In this document: in pieces, positions 27,361 to 39,245 of the stretch | How the letters are laid out: every line of letters starts with the position of its first letter | Numbering within the stretch: position 1 is the stretch's first letter | Made by a program: the position numbers and the translations under genes | Notes under the pieces: generated by a model | Told to the model about the DNA's origin: nothing | Database searches by the model: none | What the model saw: only the letters and a program-made list of their open reading frames with translations | NCBI GenBank assembly: GCA_947498595.1 | Contig: CANMKX010000001.1 | Coordinates: forward strand, 248,001-312,000 | DNA length: 64,000 nt | Reading direction: 5' to 3' | Source: an uncultured Aquimarina sp. | GTDB lineage: Bacteria > Bacteroidota > Bacteroidia > Flavobacteriales > Flavobacteriaceae

Positions 27361-28583
<1,223 letters not shown>

Positions 28584-31500
28584 CTTTTTTAGATTTGATT
28601 ATTTGTTGATTTACAGCAACAATACATCCCAAATGGTTTAGTCGCACTTTTACAATACCTTCTAGTCCTTTTAACCCTAATCGTTTGTAGGTTATATCCT
28701 TTAATTCTTTAGTGGTTTCTGTGGTAGTTTCTAAGTGATGTTTAAATACATAATCTTTGGTAGTAAATTTTTGTACTCGATATAAATATTTACTTATTAA
28801 AGCATAGTTCTTCTCTTCTGTAAAATCTATTGTTTCTACATCAAAATCATCATTAGGAAAAACAAACATTTCATTTTTCGCCATACTAAACTGAAATTCC
28901 CATCCTTCCTCTTTTTTATGATTTGTATCGATAATAGTAAGATCTTGAGCTACTCTTGTTACAGTTTCAAAGAGAGAGACCACCTGTTCTTGTAATGCTC
29001 CTTTTTTATCTTTATATATTGCTATATGATGATTATTTCCTGTACTAACATAGTCTACAGCTTGTTCTTTACCATCTATAAGTATGGGGACACCTAAATG
29101 ATCTTTTTTACTATGTATAGCTTGCGCATTTTCTACGCCAGTAATTGTTGTTCTTTTTATTTTTATACCAGCAGCTTTATTGAGCCAGATAGGATTTTTA
29201 TCTAGATCAGAAAAGGCTTTTTTTGCATTTCCATTAGATGTTTGTAAGCGTTTTAGTAATAATTCTTTAACTTTAAGATCAACTACTTTTTGTATGTCTT
29301 TTTCGGTTTTAAAATTATCAGATGTTATAGGTTTTCTAATCGTGTATTGAGTTTGATATGTTCCGACAGTGATTTTTTCTGGAAGCTGTTCTTTTTGTGC
29401 TGTATCTATATAAATAGGATTTTTACTCAAACTATTTTTACCAGTAAAGGCTTTTTTGGGATCGTTATTATGTGTTTCTAACCTTGATAATAGTACGTTT
29501 CGATATTTTTTATTGTGTACTTTTAGGATCATCTCGCGATCAAATGCGCTTCCTATTTTTTTATCTTTTAAGACTAATTTGTTATAAGATCCATAGACAG
29601 TATCTTTATGCAACCTTCCTCTAGGAGTTAATTGTACTTTGGTTAGAGAACCTTCTTTTACTTTTATGATATTGGTATTCTTGGTAGTTACTTTATTTTT
29701 TGCTTTAAAAGAAATAAGAATACTTTCTATATGTTTTTTGGTTTCTTTTCTAAAAAATGCCATTGGAGGTTTAAACTTTCGTTTGCCATCATGATCTACA
29801 AAAGTTTCATTTTGTTCTATTCCATAAATAGCACTGTTTTTGTTTTTACGCTCTTGTAATGTGTTGAGGTATTGCACATGAGCAGGCTTGGTAAATGCTA
29901 CGGTCAAGGCATCTATGGCATGGTGTCTATGATCATTACGCTTTGTCCAATCTTTGATTTGTTCTATTTTTTTACCCGTTCTGCGTGTTTCTACATAAGT
30001 AAGTCCTAAAGCCCTGTATTTGGGTAAATTTATTTCTTTTAACACATTAATAATCCCCCAATCTTCTCGTAGTTTTTGAGTGATTTTACCTGTGGTAGTA
30101 TGTACATGCCTTATCGCTTCTAGTAGTTTTGTTCGAGCACTTTTAGTAATATACTGTGTATTGCGTAAATCCCTTTCTATAAAATCATTAGGTAAATCAA
30201 CTTCGCTCATTAAGAGTTTTTTATATTTAGCCGTTGAGATTGCATTTGCTTTATACAAAGCAGTTACATTTTCTTTATAAGTAACCAATGAACTTGCATG
30301 AATGTTAGTGATATAATCCAAAGCAGTTTGATCTGCTTTTTCGAGATTGTAAGATCTGTATGCTAATGTTTTATTCGAGAAAGAATCATCAAATATTTTG
30401 GCCTTAGGCAATATATGTTCTATCTCAATATCTTTACTAAAAAGCTTTTCTTTAGGAATATATTTATTGGCGTATAAAGATCGATATCCGTTTGTAGCCA
30501 GTTCTTTATAAAGTTTAAGACGTATACGATCATTACGACTTGGATTTTTGATATGAAATGGTGCTGCATGAAGTTCTTTGACTAGCGCATCATTTATTTT
30601 TTTTGAAGCATTAATTTGCTTGGTTACTCGATCTCTTTCTTTTAAAGATTGTTTAAGTTCTCTTGCCAATTCAATTCTGATCTCATCAGGTTTTCCATAA
30701 GTATCAATAATTTGATTGACCAGATTTACCATTTGATTCAAGATTTTTTCTACCGTAGGATTACGCAAGCTGTTTTTAGGAATCAAGGTTAGATGCGAAG
30801 CTAATTGCCGTTGCATATTTTCTTCTTTCGTAAAAACCATTTGATCTTTGTATCCCGCTAAGGCCTTTGCCTCGCTGTATAGATGTCCTTCTCTTAAAAA
30901 AGGTAACATTTTACGTATTGCTTTAGGACTTAAACTACCATAATCCTTTACCAAAGCAATATTAATTAGAAACGTAGCATATACTGGAGCAAAGCCATAA
31001 GTACGATGCAAGACTTTTTTTAGGCCAACATTGGTATCTCCATATGTGTTTTTATCAGCCTCGCTAATCATATTATCATCCTCGGCAGCATATAATAAAT
31101 GCCATAACTGATAACTTTTTTGTTGATCTATGGTTGTATCTTTCGGTAAAGCTTCAAAATCTAATATGGCAGTATTGATTGTAAGAGTTTTAAATACTTG
31201 ACGTATTTCATCCTTCTTAGTTGTTACCGCTTTCTTTTTCCAATCAAGACCATAACCTTCTTGTTCAAGAATCTTATGGTATGCATCAAAAAATCTTGCT
31301 TGTGTACTATTTCCTTCTAACCCTTCGGTATAATTGAGTTTGTATTTTCTGCTGCTATACCCTAATGTTTTTAAAACTTCTGTTGCGGATAATTTTTCTT
31401 TGTATGATAGTTTTTCAAATAATAAAGCACGTTGTTCATCATTCAAACTAAATATATTTCCTGTATCTTGATCTTGGATTTGTACAGCATTGATTTGCTG

Positions 31501-32756
31501 CCATACTTTAAACTCTTGGAATAGGGGAGAAGATTTAGGAATCGCTTTATGAAATTTTTCATACTCGCAATTGCTCACTAGGTGTTTTTGTGATTTAAGC
31601 TTGCGCTGATAAAAAATAACCACATCTCGTATCTCGTTTTTAAGAGACGTAGTTAATTGGGGATGAAATTTTGCTTGTGTCTCCCATAAGCATTCAAATT
31701 CATCAAGATAATCTTGTCTATAAAAAACTTGATTTTTAAGAGAGGTATGTTTATCCTTTTTTAGTTGAGAAAATAAATATGCTCCTACAGTGATTTTATT
31801 TATATACAACTCTTTACTGCGATCACTAATAGCCCCTAGATAACCACTGGTTTGTTGTATAGCAGTATTGATACGTATTAAAATATAAGCTACTTCTTCT
31901 GGAGTAATTGGCTCTTTTATAGCTTGTACTCTCCATAGGTATTCTTGTTTGCGTTTGTCTGCTGCTTTTCCTTTAATTTCAACACTAGTAAGCTGTTTTT
32001 CTATTTTTAGTAGCGACTCGGTATTTCTTTTATTTTGTTTATAAAGCTTGCTATACAACTCATCTGTAAATATAGTTGGATATGCTTTTTGCTGTACTGC
32101 CCATATACGGTTAAACTCCTCTTGTAAATCCGAAGCATAAAAGTCAGGAAGTTGCTTCTTTCCTTTTTCTAGTAATTGAAGAGAAAATTCTCCAGGTGTT
32201 AGCGCCTCTTCGTATAGTTTTTTAGCAATACGAATACCATCAATACTAGTTCCATCTACATCTAACTGAGTTTTTCGATTGCTTTTATAGCCTCTTTTTT
32301 TATTAATTTGTAATAATACTCTGGCAAACTCCTCTAATGTGATGGCAGAATTTGCTGCTTTGGCTCGTAAGTTTAATGTTTGATGTGTTGTATTTTTACC
32401 TATTTCTGTTAGCGGAGTATCGTTTTGTATCCACTGTTCTTTTTGGAGTAAGTTGATTAAATATTTTCGACGAAGTTTAAAACGTTGTAAAGTACGTCTA
32501 GCACTTCGCATCTTAGTTCTTTCAGCATTAATAGAGTACGGTTTACCGGCATTAAAATTTAGCTTTTCATCTGCTGTTAGAGGAATTATTCTTGCTCCTA
32601 ATTTTATAATTTTTGATACTTCCTGGTCATGTTCTGCCTCTGCTACCAAAGACCATCCAATGGATGTTGTGCCTATATCCAAACCTACTATGTTACGCAT
32701 ATTTGTACTAATGTTTTGTTATTGATTTTAAAATTAGGTAAAAATTACTTTAGAAT

Positions 32757-32772
32757 TTTACGGAAAACCGTA
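32757..32772. promoter_or_regulatory. palindrome TTTACGG-AAAA-CCGTA between cas9 and tracrRNA
   Basis: This inverted repeat, TACGG/CCGTA with a 4-base spacer and preceded by TTT, lies 57-72 bases upstream of the cas9 start and ends about 36 bases before the tracrRNA start. The same pattern at the same distance precedes the QueC cassette (35714-35731). It is a likely operator. Confidence 0.5.
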
Positions 32773-32996: not shown

Positions 32997-33705
32997 TTCG
33001 TACTTATGTGATGAGTCACAGGTTTTTTAAACCAAGATATAGTTGGAATAACGTTGTGAATTGCTTGCAAAATTCGTACTTATGTGATGAGTCACAGGAA
33101 AACCCACAATTTAATTGCAAAAATTGCAGTTGTGAATTGCTTGCAAAATTCGTACTTATGTGATGAGTCACAGGACCTTTTTATCTAAATACCTTAAGAA
33201 ATATGTTGTGAATTGCTTGCAAAATTCGTAATTATGTGATGAGTCACAGGTTAATCCTGTTTCGAACTCAGTAACTGAGTGTTGTGAATTGCTTGCAAAA
33301 TTCGTAATTATGTGATGAGTCACAGGTTCTCCATCTCTAGGAGATAATTCAGATTTGTTGTGAATTGCTTGCAAAATTCGTAATTATGTGATGAGTCACA
33401 GGAGTTATAGATAACATATCTCCTTTGCTAGGTTGTGAATTGCTTGCAAAATTCGTAATTATGTGATGAGTCACAGGCAAGCGCGTTTTCAGGGGTTTCC
33501 TAAATGCGTTGTGAATTGCTTGCAAAATTCGTAATTATGTGATGAGTCACAGGACAAAGTGGTGTTATTCTTTTGCGCGTTTAGTTGTGAATTGCTTGCA
33601 AAATTCGTAATTATGTGATGAGTCACAGGGTAGCGTTAATTCTTGTTGATTCTCCTAGTGTTGTGAATTGCTTGCAAAATTCGTAATTATGTGATGAGTC
33701 ACAGG
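32997..33705 (+). CRISPR. type II-C CRISPR array B (1 partial + 9 full repeats, 9 spacers)
   Basis: Full 46-base repeats start at 33053, 33129, 33205, 33281, 33357, 33432, 33508, 33584 and 33660; a truncated copy (from TTCGTACTTATG) ends at 33022. Spacers are 30 bases, one of 29. Repeats 0-2 read GTACTTATG, repeats 3-9 GTAATTATG. Orientation is the same as array A. Arrays A and B flank the cas operon. Confidence 0.97.
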
Positions 33706-33765
33706 GTAAATCGCAAAATTCTTAGTATTTATAAGGGTTTTGCGATTTTTTTAGGATTAAAAAAA
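33706..33765 (+). promoter_or_regulatory. conserved flank of II-C array B with terminator
   Basis: These 60 bases are identical to those after array A. AAATCGCAAAA (33708-33718) pairs with TTTTGCGATTT (33738-33748) before a T run, so it is an intrinsic terminator for the array transcript and at the same time the leader-side flank with TTTATAAGGG and TAGGATTAAAAAAA. Confidence 0.75.
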
Positions 33766-34880: not shown

Positions 34881-35202
34881 TTGCAAGAAGAAATGAAAGC
34901 TTGTAACGAGTTTGTTGTTGGATTAAAAACGAAGACTATTCTAAATACTATAAAGAACATAAGCAAAAAGCAATAGGGGAAACCAAGTAAACTTTAAAAT
35001 GATTGCTTGTAAATTATAATTTCTTTAGATAATAAAATAAAAATGTAAGCATAGTCATAGCCACGATGCTATTTTATATGAAAACATAAAAGGAATAGAA
35101 ATAAAATCAATCGATTACTATGCTGCTTATTTAGTATCACATAAAGACAATTATAAATCATCAAAAACCTTTAAGATATCTTTCGAAATCTCTTCGGTAT
35201 AA
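34881..35202 (+). pseudogene. decayed gene remnant
   Basis: Translated pieces look protein-like but lack starts and change frame: LQEEMKACNEFVVGLK continues after a frameshift as NEDYSKYYKEHKQKAIGETK and a stop at 34988; a second piece reads DAILYENIKGIEIKSIDYYA and stops at 35200. The original gene could not be identified. Confidence 0.4.
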
Positions 35203-35378
35203 TGGGAATTTATCTGACTGTTTTCTGGGTTAAATGTTTTGATAAATAAACGTAGATAACACGAAATATATTCTTTCTGTTGTTGTTTATTGACGAACTC
35301 TTTACCATCAATAACTATAAAACTGATTAAGTCCTGTATAATTTTTTTTAAATCCGAAATGTCGAGTTGATTACTCAT
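35151..35378 (-). CDS. small hypothetical protein (75 residues)
   Basis: This is an acidic, helical 75-residue protein (MSNQLDISDLKKIIQDLISF). No motif was recognised and no close partner gene is seen. It overlaps the end of the decayed gene on the other strand. Codon pattern is plausible but the evidence for a real gene is modest. Confidence 0.4.
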   Translation of the reverse strand: MSNQLDISDLKKIIQDLISFIVIDGKEFVNKQQQKEYISCYLRLFIKTFNPENSQINSHYTEEISKDILKVFDDL

Positions 35379-35788
35379 AATAAGTGTGTTAAGATAGTGT
35401 GCTAGAGAATAAATATAAAATAGAGAAAACTTAGTAAAGAGAATTTTAGAACATTAAAAAGAAGAAAATCGACAAACGACCTCATTATTCTATATAGATA
35501 AAAAAAGAAGTAGGAGTTATGTTTTAATGTTGTTAAATCATAGCAATGTATACTTACAGCAGTACATGGTTATTATAAAATGAAATTCATAAAGTGCCCC
35601 TAATATTTATGTAAAAAATAAATTTCTGTAAAAAATGTACGTATTCTAATGAGTTCTATTCCAATAACTTTTAAAAAATAAACGAATCGTCATAAGAAAA
35701 ATATTTTTAATCGTTTTACGGATTACCGTAAGGAATAATGATAGGTATTACTTTCTTTTGTTAGGAATTAAATTTAAATATTAAAAAT
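35379..35788. promoter_or_regulatory. 410-base non-coding stretch with palindrome 35714-35731 before the QueC cassette
   Basis: It is mostly featureless AT-rich DNA. TTACGG-ATTA-CCGTAA, preceded by TT, at 35714-35731 is a 6-bp inverted repeat 58-75 bases before the first gene of the cassette, the same motif and distance as before cas9. TACTTTC at 35749 could be a weak -7 box downstream of it. Confidence 0.5.
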
Positions 35789-36106
35789 ATGAGTGGATCT
35801 GGTGGAGGTGGATATGTATCACCACAACGAAATGAATTTGATTGTGATAATGGTTTTATAGAGACTAATGTTTCTTCGATTAATATTGATGCTCTTAAAA
35901 AACGTAAAATTGCAGATATTTTAGATGTAGTTATAGGAGAGAATAATGAACTGCTTTTAGAGGATGGTGATGGTGAATTTCTTGGAGCTATACTTCATCC
36001 TAATACTTCGGATTTAATAAAGTGTATTAAAACAGGTGTTGGTTATAGTGCTAAAATTCAGAATATAAGTATTCCCGTTTGTGAAGTGAAAATATACCAA
36101 AAATAA
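35789..36106 (+). CDS. Gly-rich-N-terminus small protein of the QueC cassette
   Basis: This 105-residue protein begins MSGSGGGGYVSPQRNEFDCD: a flexible glycine run, then a conserved-looking F-D-C block, followed by a compact alpha/beta domain. It is not a known enzyme. It ends 1 base before the next gene and heads the cassette. A glycine-rich free N-terminus (after Met or Met-Ser removal) beside a QueC-like enzyme suggests a carrier or a target of modification. This is inference. Confidence 0.7.
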   Translation: MSGSGGGGYVSPQRNEFDCDNGFIETNVSSINIDALKKRKIADILDVVIGENNELLLEDGDGEFLGAILHPNTSDLIKCIKTGVGYSAKIQNISIPVCEVKIYQK

Positions 36107-36107
36107 T

Positions 36108-37298
36108 ATGATTGATTTAATAGGAGGTACATATCGTGAAATTAATTATGACGATATTACAATGGAAATATTCGGATCAGGTTTCAGATCAGCTAAATTC
36201 TTACTAGAAAATAATTGTTTTGTGAATTTTACTACAAGTGGTAATAATGAAACAAATTGTTTTCTAAAGGAAACTCAAAAAGTTTACAGAAATCTAAATT
36301 TTGAATGTAAAAAGCATAAAGAATTAATAACTTTTCAATATGATTTTGCTTTAGATGAACCAACTATTTATCCTAATCCTTTGAAAATTTCAACTAATGA
36401 AGAATGGAGTGTAATAGGTAATAATGTTATAGCATTCGGAATGTTAGAATCTAGTTATAAAGTTAAAGCAAAAAAGGTAATTTATGATCCTCAAACATCT
36501 ATAAATCCAAAAAAATTTAGTGATATAGGAACAGCGGATGAATTAGTTTATATTATAAATAAAAATGAGGTTTATTCTATTTCATCAAGTGATTGTTTAA
36601 ACGAAATAAAAGAATATTTTTTTAATAAAGAAAAAGCTAAAGCTTTTATTGTTAAAAATGGTCCATATGGCGCAACATTATACACAAAAAAATCTGAATA
36701 TAGTATTCCTTGTTATATAACTAATAATGTAAATAAAATTGGTTCAGGAGACATATTTACATCAAGTTTTGGATATTATTGGATGGTTAAAGAGCTTTCA
36801 CTTGAAGAATCAGCATTATTAGCTTCGAGGTCTACAGCATTATATTGTGAAAAAAAAGCATATGTAGATTGTTCAAATGATATAGAATTTGAATATCAGG
36901 AATTTAAAAATAATGATTTAAAGGGAAAACAAGTTTATCTTGCTTCTCCATTTTTTTCCTTATCAGAATTAATTCTTGTAGATAAAATACGTAATAGTTT
37001 ATTATCTTTTGGGGTAAAAGTTTTTTCTCCATTTCATGATATAGGAATAGGGAATGAAATGATAATAGCGAAAAAGGATATAGAAGGAATTAATAATTCT
37101 GATATTGTATTTGTAGTATTAGATAATTTAGATTCAGGAACACTTATAGAATCGGGGTTTTCAATGGCCAACAATAAGAGGATTATAGGATATCATCGTA
37201 GTTGTGAGGAAAATAAATTATTAATGTTAAAGCCAGGTAATGTGGATATATATAAGAATTTAACGACTGCATTATATCAAACTATTTGGAATATATGA
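36108..37298 (+). CDS. PfkB-like kinase / nucleoside 2-deoxyribosyltransferase fusion
   Basis: This 396-residue protein has an N-terminal ribokinase/PfkB-like domain with the anion-hole/base motif GSGD (D215). From about residue 270 there is a nucleoside 2-deoxyribosyltransferase domain: KQVYLASPFFSLSE, a central SPFHDIG, and the catalytic block DSGTLIESG with the probable nucleophile E348. PfkB enzymes phosphorylate sugars or nucleosides; deoxyribosyltransferases cleave or exchange the base of nucleosides or nucleotides. The fusion implies handling of a modified nucleoside. It overlaps the QueC-like gene by 13 bases. Confidence 0.8.
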   Translation: MIDLIGGTYREINYDDITMEIFGSGFRSAKFLLENNCFVNFTTSGNNETNCFLKETQKVYRNLNFECKKHKELITFQYDFALDEPTIYPNPLKISTNEEWSVIGNNVIAFGMLESSYKVKAKKVIYDPQTSINPKKFSDIGTADELVYIINKNEVYSISSSDCLNEIKEYFFNKEKAKAFIVKNGPYGATLYTKKSEYSIPCYITNNVNKIGSGDIFTSSFGYYWMVKELSLEESALLASRSTALYCEKKAYVDCSNDIEFEYQEFKNNDLKGKQVYLASPFFSLSELILVDKIRNSLLSFGVKVFSPFHDIGIGNEMIIAKKDIEGINNSDIVFVVLDNLDSGTLIESGFSMANNKRIIGYHRSCEENKLLMLKPGNVDIYKNLTTALYQTIWNI

Positions 37299-37885
37299 AG
37301 AAAGCAGTTTTATTATCAGGAGGTGTAGACTCAATATGTTTAACATATGGAATATTACCAGATATAGCATATACTGTAGACTATGGACAAACTGTAGCTG
37401 ATAGAGAAATTTATGTGTCAAAATATATCTGTAATGAATTGAATATTGAGCATAAAATCATAAAAGTTAATTGTAAAGAGTTAGGTTCAGGTACATTAGC
37501 GAATTGTGAGAAATCGAATATTTCTCCTTCAGAAGAATGGTGGCCATATAGAAATCAATTATTAATAACATTTGCTTCAATGCAATCAATAAAAGACTCT
37601 GTAACTGAAATTTATTTAGCATCTGTGAAATCTGATAATTTTCATAAAGATGGAACAGAAGTTTTTTATAAATTAATTAATAACCTTACAAATTATCAAG
37701 AAGGCAATGTTAATATAATTTGCCCAACTTTGAAATTCTTTAGTCATGAATTAATACATAAATATAGTGTTCCTTTAGAGTTAATATCAATGGCTCATTC
37801 TTGTCATATTTCTAATTTGGCATGCGGAAAATGTTCAGGATGTATAAAACAATTAAGAGTAAGACATGAACTAAAAATAAAATAA
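37286..37885 (+). CDS. QueC-like 7-cyano-7-deazaguanine synthase family protein
   Basis: This 199-residue protein has the PP-loop ATP pyrophosphatase motif LSGGVDS near the N-terminus, the QueC-type WWPYRNQLL segment, and a Cys4 zinc site (C-x6-CGKCSGC). QueC turns carboxy-deazaguanine into preQ0 in queuosine synthesis. No queD, queE or folE lies nearby, and the gene is part of a tight three-gene cassette. Relatives serve in defence (QatC of Qat, Cap9 of type IV CBASS), so a dedicated role is more likely than housekeeping queuosine synthesis. Confidence 0.85.
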   Translation: MEYMKKAVLLSGGVDSICLTYGILPDIAYTVDYGQTVADREIYVSKYICNELNIEHKIIKVNCKELGSGTLANCEKSNISPSEEWWPYRNQLLITFASMQSIKDSVTEIYLASVKSDNFHKDGTEVFYKLINNLTNYQEGNVNIICPTLKFFSHELIHKYSVPLELISMAHSCHISNLACGKCSGCIKQLRVRHELKIK

Positions 37886-38555: not shown

Positions 38556-39245
38556 ATGGGGATTTTAAACTTTTTAAAACCGAAACCTTCAGTAGAAAGA
38601 TTAACCAAAAATCTAGTAACTTATATTTATAAAAGCGTTGAAACCGATAAAGGTGTTCGTGTTGAAGATGCATTGTGTGTTATAGCAACAATTGTAGCAG
38701 AAAGATGTATCCAAGTTGCTAATGAATTTTCCATAGATGAGCACGACTTTGAACCAGGATCAGTTGTGTTTTCTGACAAAATGAATGAAATCCTTGTCGG
38801 ATCCATTGTAGTTGAAGATTGGAATCATTTACCACCAAACTCTATTTTTGCTAGAATTAAAAGAAAGATAGATTCGCATTTTGAAGAAACTTCTTTTCCT
38901 GAGCTGATAAAAATAGTTGAAAACTATGTAGCAAATGTAAATACATTAGCATGGGGAACTATACATCTCAATATTCCAGAAGAAAACAAACCTTTGATAC
39001 TACCTTTACAAGCTGGGTACGAAACTAGAGCATACGTTGATGAAAATATTAACACAGAAAGCAATGAAAAAATGCTACGCGTTATTATTAACGCTCTCTG
39101 TCGTATTTTAATAGAAACTAAAAATGTAATATCACCTACCATAGCTTTGACATTAACATTTGAAATGATAAACGGAATGTCGAAAACTGCTACTATGACA
39201 CACAAAAAGTGGCAAGTATTAGAACCTGAAATAGTAAAAAAATAA
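38556..39245 (+). CDS. conserved-looking protein of unknown function
   Basis: This is a 229-residue soluble protein without signal or membrane segment, starting MGILNFLKPKPSVERLTKNL. It is helical in the first 110 residues, with a second mixed domain. No motif was recognised. Confidence 0.6.
   Translation: MGILNFLKPKPSVERLTKNLVTYIYKSVETDKGVRVEDALCVIATIVAERCIQVANEFSIDEHDFEPGSVVFSDKMNEILVGSIVVEDWNHLPPNSIFARIKRKIDSHFEETSFPELIKIVENYVANVNTLAWGTIHLNIPEENKPLILPLQAGYETRAYVDENINTESNEKMLRVIINALCRILIETKNVISPTIALTLTFEMINGMSKTATMTHKKWQVLEPEIVKK

Follow-up and report, generated by a model that had tools for sequence, protein, structure and literature searches.

In this study, we analysed a cassette of three tightly packed genes in a genome assembly of an uncultured Aquimarina sp., located on a 64,000-nt stretch of contig CANMKX010000001.1 (positions 248,001 to 312,000; this whole stretch is referred to as the window). 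The cassette occupies positions 35789–37885 of the plus strand. It starts with the gene of a small protein of 105 aa (35789..36106), in which, from the open reading frame (ORF) coordinates and comparison with homologues, a Gly/Ser-rich N-terminal tail precedes a HIRAN-like domain; the tail conserved among homologues, MSGSGGGGY, is encoded by 35789..35815. After a gap of a single base follows a gene of 396 aa (36108..37298), whose product fuses a PfkB half with ribokinase/nucleoside kinase fold (approximately residues 1–263, 36108..36896; PF00294, E 2.7e-9) to a nucleoside deoxyribosyltransferase (NDT) half (36924..37298; PF05014, E 4.4e-14). The third gene (37295..37885) encodes a QueC-like protein (PF06508, E 3.4e-19), to which PADLOC assigned its QueC model, while it assigned none to the small protein or PfkB-NDT. 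The ORF check bore out the packing and the 1-base gap described in an initial annotation made from the sequence alone. The 13-base overlap claimed there between the last two genes exists if translation starts from TTG at 37286, but homologues start at the in-frame ATG 37295, which is therefore the most likely start and leaves the usual 4-base ATGA overlap. Comparison of homologous loci demonstrates a three-gene unit, its mobility, a conserved tail and intact active-site motifs, and we read the cassette as a putative, unnamed third form of QueC-based immunity by protein modification.

The three genes were followed through a set of 110 loci including the window, made up further of 22 plasmid loci, 80 of 262 GTDB relatives from a QueC profile scan and 7 viral contigs. 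A PfkB homologue is present in 109 and the small protein in 102 of these loci; the eight loci without small protein are three rhizobial variants with TIR proteins (L025–L027), three loci that start no more than about 1 kb from the end of their contig (L032, L070, L113) and two in which the PfkB frame is broken up (L033, L104). Wherever all three genes were clearly detected (100 of 100 loci, window included), they are arranged on one strand within 2.1 kb in the order small protein, PfkB/NDT, QueC; two of the 102 loci with small protein (L051, L087) have shortened PfkB frames and stand outside this count. Pairwise identities are correlated between the three proteins, with rho values of 0.77 for QueC and PfkB, 0.66 for QueC and the small protein and 0.62 for PfkB and the small protein, the maximum after permutation being 0.09 for QueC and the small protein. 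Furthermore, a profile of the small protein matched 7 of 395 Bacteroidota genomes (own genome included), with PfkB and QueC following it in all seven.

Carriers comprise several proteobacterial classes, a cyanobacterium, haloarchaea, many Bacteroidota and a few other phyla, and many of the cassettes reside on plasmids. By tblastn, PfkB-NDT was found in 39 plasmid records, 36 of them with a coverage of at least 80%, and the QueC-like protein in 30 records, most of which are PfkB-NDT records with QueC adjoining PfkB-NDT; 19 of the 39 records belong to conjugative plasmids. Conversely, none of 55 other close genomes showed a PfkB-NDT match at E 1e-3 spanning both halves (partial PfkB matches occurred in two), although this search missed a divergent set held by one of the 55, G002. 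Since carriers span distant phyla while close relatives mostly lack the cassette, its distribution is patchy and mobile. Vertical inheritance and queD or queE next door, which the initial annotation had named as signs against its own reading, were both looked for, and neither was seen. Seven IMG/VR contigs carry relatives, six of them together with PfkB and the small protein, while the seventh begins at the QueC gene. When an empty site was sought, the gene at 38556 turned up in 2 of 36 genomes (own genome included); as the flanks differ in the other one, no clean empty site was obtained.

The small protein bears a conserved N-terminal tail. When both sets were judged by one criterion, namely an ATG within the first 60 codons of the open frame with [SGTC]G[SGATN] directly after it, the tail was found in 92 of 102 small proteins versus 10 of 1052 neighbour genes of at least 150 aa. 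Among the ten misses, three are near forms (L013, MSGP; L011, MSSG; L101, MSGR), the MSGG start of L114 lies slightly beyond codon 60, a suitable start lies deeper in the frame of L060, L071 and L116, and L051 lacks the N-terminus; L024 and L108 are discussed below. If instead the last ATG before a conserved Cys is taken as start, MSGS is obtained in 60 of 97 and M[SGTC]G in 89 of 97 proteins (one of these, L088, being an inner ATG), 6 of the remaining 8 have an MSG start further upstream, and 5 of the 102 have no ATG by this rule. An alignment of 78 sequences, in which starts were chosen to fit M[SGTC][GS], contains Ser (72), Gly (3) or Thr (3) at residue 2 and Gly at residue 3 in 77 of 78. 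It consists of the window and 77 of 92 references, a set from which L024, L051 and L108 (no fitting ATG), duplicates and proteins above 180 aa, hence the haloarchaeal ones, had already been removed. The latter start with MGGG or MCGG and double the domain; two copies are seen at the haloarchaeal plasmid loci L009, L017 and L020, in L020 with a long acidic Gly-rich linker. Each of the second residues observed (Ser, Gly, Thr, Cys) is compatible with cleavage of the initiator Met, which would be expected for a protein whose free N-terminus is important. AlphaFold2 predicts a HIRAN-like fold for the body, with values above 90 for the domain and an average of 57 over the first ten residues. By sequence, HIRAN was absent among the 25 families shown of 40 matched by the 78 members, and a search of solved structures with the small-protein profile gave a best E of 0.06.

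The two enzymes retain their active-site motifs. In alignments of 22 sequences, comprising the window and all but one of the 22 plasmid loci, the QueC-like protein keeps SGGxDS, YGQ, RN and four Zn-binding Cys, and the Asp which reads the base in QueC and in Cap9 of type IV CBASS (cyclic-oligonucleotide-based antiphage signalling system) is kept as D117 in 22 of 22. At the place of the YPDC motif of canonical QueC, the cassette enzyme has HxDG. We rejected a role in canonical queuosine biosynthesis, since YPDC is missing, queD and queE are absent next door and the enzyme scores 57.4 bits with TIGR00364 versus a cut-off of 150.3. In PfkB-NDT, the NxxE (N151, E154) and GSGD (D215) motifs of the PfkB half are retained: N151, E154, G212, G214 and D215 are present in 22 of 22 sequences, three TIR variants included. 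Glu348 of the NDT half is invariant in 71 of 71 homologues, in an alignment (window and 70 of 97) that does not contain the TIR variants.

A deazaguanine precursor is probably available in the host. The own genome encodes a QueE-like protein (TIGR04322, E 2.6e-37, 128 bits versus a cut-off of 200), two QueD/PTPS-like proteins and a tRNA-guanine transglycosylase (TGT), with QueE-like on contig 23, the PTPS genes on contigs 12 and 14, the cassette on contig 1 and the sole TGT match on another contig. No queuosine genes were seen among the scanned neighbouring ORFs (seven proteins, including the three of the cassette), in line with the initial annotation. The only other PF06508 match of the own genome is a 22-bit partial one in a gene that, by eye, we take to be argininosuccinate-synthase-like. 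Among 36 close genomes, PF06508 matched at E 1e-3 in 24, of which 16 pass the Pfam cut-off; strong matches are confined to the cassette, with 68.9 bits, and the variant in G002, with 127.1 bits, while the rest, at 27.5 bits or less, are taken for other PP-loop enzymes. Because QueE is widespread and strong PF06508 matches are limited to these two, 7-carboxy-7-deazaguanine (CDG) is probably made in the own genome and its relatives without canonical QueC. These genomes have kept QueE, QueD-like proteins and TGT, with no canonical QueC seen.

Variants and accessory genes widen the picture. A rhizobial variant is found on plasmids of Rhizobium, Agrobacterium and Neorhizobium (L025–L027), in which no match to the small protein was obtained. 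Its operon contains PfkB with a degenerate NDT, a TIR protein that includes a Cap10/TGT-like stretch, an Ogg-HhH glycosylase, QueC and a further TIR protein with an MGGG tail. The latter follows QueC and starts with MGGGSSGSW (L025) or MGGGGGGDGNW (L026), while the other TIR protein contains a 78-residue stretch whose best match among solved structures is Cap10 (E 2.2e-8), followed by archaeosine TGT (E 0.0014). Further TIR genes lie around these loci, and we regard the variant as a candidate deazaguanine-gated TIR system. G002, a member of the window's genus, holds a divergent four-gene set (L175:6736-9702) of small protein, PfkB-NDT, QueC and a glycosylase-like protein; this small protein has 123 aa, starts with MGSSGSG and matches the small-protein profile with a probability of 81 and E 1.2e-5, and the glycosylase-like protein weakly matches a model of N-glycosylase/DNA lyase (E 2e-4). 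Accessory genes recur among the 110 loci, namely SagB/nitroreductase-like (64), Ogg-HhH glycosylase (65), Dam-like methylase (30) and HD dGTPase-like (20) genes, with an Mrr-type nuclease at some loci. The 26 Bacteroidota loci of the window's kind (L031–L053, L058, L059, L082) have the HD gene in 8 and the glycosylase in 1 case, and a larger gene set is found at some other Bacteroidota loci in a partial table. Two Rhodobacterales plasmid cassettes (L008:8504-9043, L016:8468-9043) adjoin a VUT-family gene annotated as queuosine-salvage transporter, and genes of the Multiubiquitin and ThiF families occur near the cassette in the flanks of L012 and L023, where they might belong to a shared protein-conjugation island.

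The flanks of the cassette are rich in defence genes. PADLOC models were matched 472 times in 130 flank ORFs versus 71 times in 124 ORFs of random stretches, numbers which overstate the contrast, as promiscuous ATPase models multiply the counts and the random stretches come from other genomes. The flank set represents 130 of 145 collected ORFs from 26 loci, 24 of them in Bacteroidota (the others are L061 from Sulfuricurvum and L100 from Pantoea), and the control 124 of 137 ORFs from 20 random stretches of other Bacteroidota genomes, two of the omitted ORFs being very long. The commonest PADLOC matches in the flanks are dGTPase (9 ORFs), RmrA (4) and AriA, PtuA, HEC-01A and others (3 each), to which Pfam adds ResIII (5). 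The defence role that the initial annotation had suggested gains support from these flanks together with the mobility.

In the window, the ORFs next to the cassette among the seven proteins scanned are a Zn-ribbon protein, a short ORF, a GNAT protein and an unknown protein. An ORF of 75 aa on the minus strand (35151–35378), without domain match over any cut-off, is a candidate for the decayed gene mentioned in the initial annotation. The CRISPR locus reported there is present upstream of the cassette, with an array of 8 copies at a 76-bp period (32997..33712) and an ORF on the minus strand (28528..32700), which we take to be cas9-like from that annotation and from its sequence by eye. A shared operator of cas9 and cassette had also been proposed. 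Its 17-base sequence, TTTTACGGANNACCGTA, matches the window twice at up to 2 mismatches, both times exactly, with 0.05 matches expected by chance: one copy, TTTTACGGATTACCGTA, lies on the plus strand at 35714..35730, 58 bp before the small-protein gene, and the second, likewise on the plus strand, at 32756..32772, 55 bp before the cas9-like ORF. The own genome contains 8 sites at up to 1 mismatch, 4 of them exact; half of the eight stand before cas9, the cassette and, with one mismatch each, an OLD-like ATPase and a KAP NTPase, and the genes behind the other four have no PADLOC match. Six genus mates contain 7 exact sites, of which 5 lie about 150 bp before a gene that, by eye, we presume to encode a BLUF photoreceptor-like protein and 2 have no nearby start. 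The two exact copies in the window stand, while the operator is not specific to defence, and we retained it only in part as the mark of a defence regulon.

With moderate confidence, we propose that the cassette is an immune system built around modification of a protein N-terminus, where we infer both the modification and the phage defence from the comparative data. Methionine aminopeptidase would expose Ser2 of the small protein (Gly2, Thr2 or Cys2 in some homologues); like Cap9 of type IV CBASS, the QueC-like enzyme would use ATP to activate CDG, or another carboxylate resembling guanine, and couple it to this N-terminus. Through its HIRAN-like body, the small protein could meet DNA, for example ends or damage made by phage, and PfkB-NDT might act on the tail-borne base or be switched by it. 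For this last step, the most economical guess would be transfer of a (deoxy)ribose to the base by NDT, followed by phosphorylation by PfkB. Where present, the optional Ogg-like glycosylase, SagB/nitroreductase-like protein, Dam-like methylase and dGTPase-like protein may widen trigger or effect. N-terminal modification is the best reading because comparable tails sit on unrelated bodies (HIRAN-like, TIR, CD-NTase and QatB) and because a Cap10-like domain occurs in the TIR variant. The initial annotation had seen the small protein, with MSGSGGGG exposed at its start, as carrier or target of QueC; comparison strongly supports this idea through the near-invariant tail, its occurrence on a TIR protein of a divergent variant and the parallel starts MGGS and MGTS of known QueC-family partners. 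A bolder extension, which we regard as a long shot, is a protein-borne nucleotide, in which the base set by QueC on the HIRAN-like N-terminus would receive (deoxy)ribose from NDT and phosphate from PfkB and would mark or arm the protein at phage DNA, with the Cap10/TGT-like domain replacing NDT in the TIR variant.

Several observations weigh against N-terminal modification in an immune system, besides the inflated contrast of the flanks. A His takes the place of the base-stacking Tyr of Cap9, so that the substrate may differ, and residue 2 of the tail is Ser in most cases, whereas CD-NTase (MGGS) and QatB (MGTS) have Gly there. From its sole likely start, a TTG, L024 shows no Gly tail, the Gly run of L108 comes without an ATG, and L011 starts with MSSG. 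HIRAN is a fold match only, with Foldseek E above 1e-3, and at E up to 1 a profile search with the window protein gave no HIRAN match and one unrelated weak match. The evidence from the Cap10-like domain and the MGGG tail stems from the divergent rhizobial variant, not from the window's type, and most loci of the window's kind lack the glycosylase and a gene labelled gene 4. QueE is found in 32 of 34 close genomes (own included), also in those without cassette, so the production of CDG does not serve this system exclusively. A phage collection contained no close QueC of the cassette type; its 35 records all lie below 60% identity, and the 15 matches listed, at 25–28% identity, are mostly annotated as QueC.

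Four other explanations have to be considered. PfkB-NDT could be a toxic effector, with NDT destroying NAD+ or nucleotides and the QueC-modified small protein restraining or releasing it, which we regard as possible, though doubtful. Retron Eco1, which has an NDT-like effector, works by NAD+ hydrolysis (PMC12405507), cassettes of three genes exist without any other recurrent adjoining gene, and NDT is degenerate in the variant where TIR proteins appear, as if one nucleotide-destroying effector had been swapped for another. However, the Cap10-like domain in the TIR variant could equally replace NDT, and the PfkB residues kept in every aligned sequence, including the TIR variants, find no explanation. 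Somewhat less probable still is a report on modified phage DNA: glycosylase and dGTPase would free 7-deazaguanine bases from such DNA or from nucleotides, NDT would strip the deoxyribose and QueC would load the base on the small protein, which would in this way signal the phage. Phages with 7-deazaguanine DNA do exist (PMC6884629), NDT and PfkB families handle (deoxy)nucleosides, and the glycosylase and dGTPase-like clusters occur in 65 and 20 of the 110 loci, but the window cassette adjoins neither gene, and a phage source is not needed because the host can probably make CDG itself.

Salvage of purines or nucleosides, with QueC-like protein and PfkB-NDT as metabolic enzymes, is the published guess for this enzyme pair, which Libby and colleagues defined as Cluster 4 of PF06508 in a paper of July 2026, where about 89% of the neighbourhoods contain PF00294-PF05014 (PMC13329287). 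We consider it improbable, as it leaves unexplained the conserved tail protein, the TIR variant with its tail and Cap10-like domain, the patchy distribution among the 55 relatives and the defence-rich flanks. Least credible of all appears a DNA modification or restriction island, where Dam and glycosylase would serve to mark or cleave DNA and the cassette would be the source of an unusual DNA base: the Dam cluster (30 of 110 loci), the glycosylase and the Mrr-type nuclease would fit into such an island, but Dam is present in less than a third of the loci, no TGT-type gene was recognised in the main cassette, and a conserved protein N-terminus would have no use. If N-terminal modification holds, deazaguanine chemistry would be a module common to at least three immune systems, and the cassette would offer a small, tractable substrate of 105 aa with a short tail. 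It would furthermore correct the published salvage reading, point to a possible mechanism of the rhizobial TIR variant and show what CDG serves for in bacteria which apparently produce it without having canonical QueC.

Attachment of a deazaguanine to a protein N-terminus has been demonstrated for type IV CBASS, where it is joined to the N-terminus of the CD-NTase (PMC11996544; described also in PMC13279940 and PMC13329287), while the chemistry of Qat is unsolved. The cassette resembles type IV CBASS in its QueC of approximately 190 aa with YGQ, RN and the Asp of YPDC, in a GSG[DE]LxG stretch common with Cap9, in a partner with an N-terminus of small residues and Gly, and in the Cap10-like domain of the rhizobial variant. 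It differs in that the partner is HIRAN-like instead of a CD-NTase and mostly carries Ser2, His stands for the stacking Tyr, PfkB-NDT is present instead of Cap10 and no cyclic-nucleotide effector was recognised. Neither Pfam nor PADLOC matched a CD-NTase among the three cassette proteins, and no gene for Cap10, a TGT-family protein, was seen at the cassette, the Cap10-like domain being confined to the TIR variant. Qat probably modifies QatB, and both the tail of QatB and the active site of QatC are required (PMC13279940). In Qat as in the cassette, the partner of the QueC-family enzyme bears a tail but has an otherwise unrelated fold; QatB starts with MGTS (PMC13279940). In contrast to qatABCD, the cassette QueC has 196 aa without N- or C-terminal extensions, keeps the Asp (D117) that QatC replaced by Thr, in place of the Thr pair in the QatC base site, and is accompanied by PfkB-NDT. 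No QatA NTPase or QatD TatD nuclease was found among the scanned window neighbours or by PADLOC, and we rejected both type IV CBASS and Qat proper, for want of a CD-NTase and of QatA and QatD, respectively. The retron Eco1 likewise employs an NDT-family protein in defence (PMC12405507), but no reverse transcriptase was seen beside the cassette, and its NDT is fused to PfkB.

The cassette also shares features with Cluster 4 (PMC13329287). The C-terminal signature of this cluster, CH(x)5CxxCxGCxK, is present (C168-H169-x5-C175-xx-C178-x-G-C181-x-K183), and the PF00294-PF05014 fusion is adjacent. As to its YGQ(x)6E motif, YGQ and Glu36 are invariant in 16 of 16 sequences here, but the spacing between Q30 and E36 is five residues instead of six. 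In contrast to our reading, this paper suggests salvage, and in its available main text no tail protein, TIR variant, glycosylase or defence context was found; the terms 'HIRAN', 'small protein' and 'glycosylase' are absent in a term search of the main text. Our literature search found QueC together with deoxyribosyltransferase and PfkB only in this paper, and none on PfkB and nucleoside deoxyribosyltransferase as a defence system. Among the titles and abstracts listed, none described the tail protein or a TIR-Cap10 fusion; bioRxiv and most subscription papers lay outside this search, so that the absence of either from print is uncertain. The statement of the initial annotation that this is not a named system therefore holds for the whole set as far as searched, but not for the pair of QueC and PfkB-NDT. 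This pair is known; as far as these searches show, the novelty lies in the tail protein, the TIR/Cap10 variant and the immune reading.

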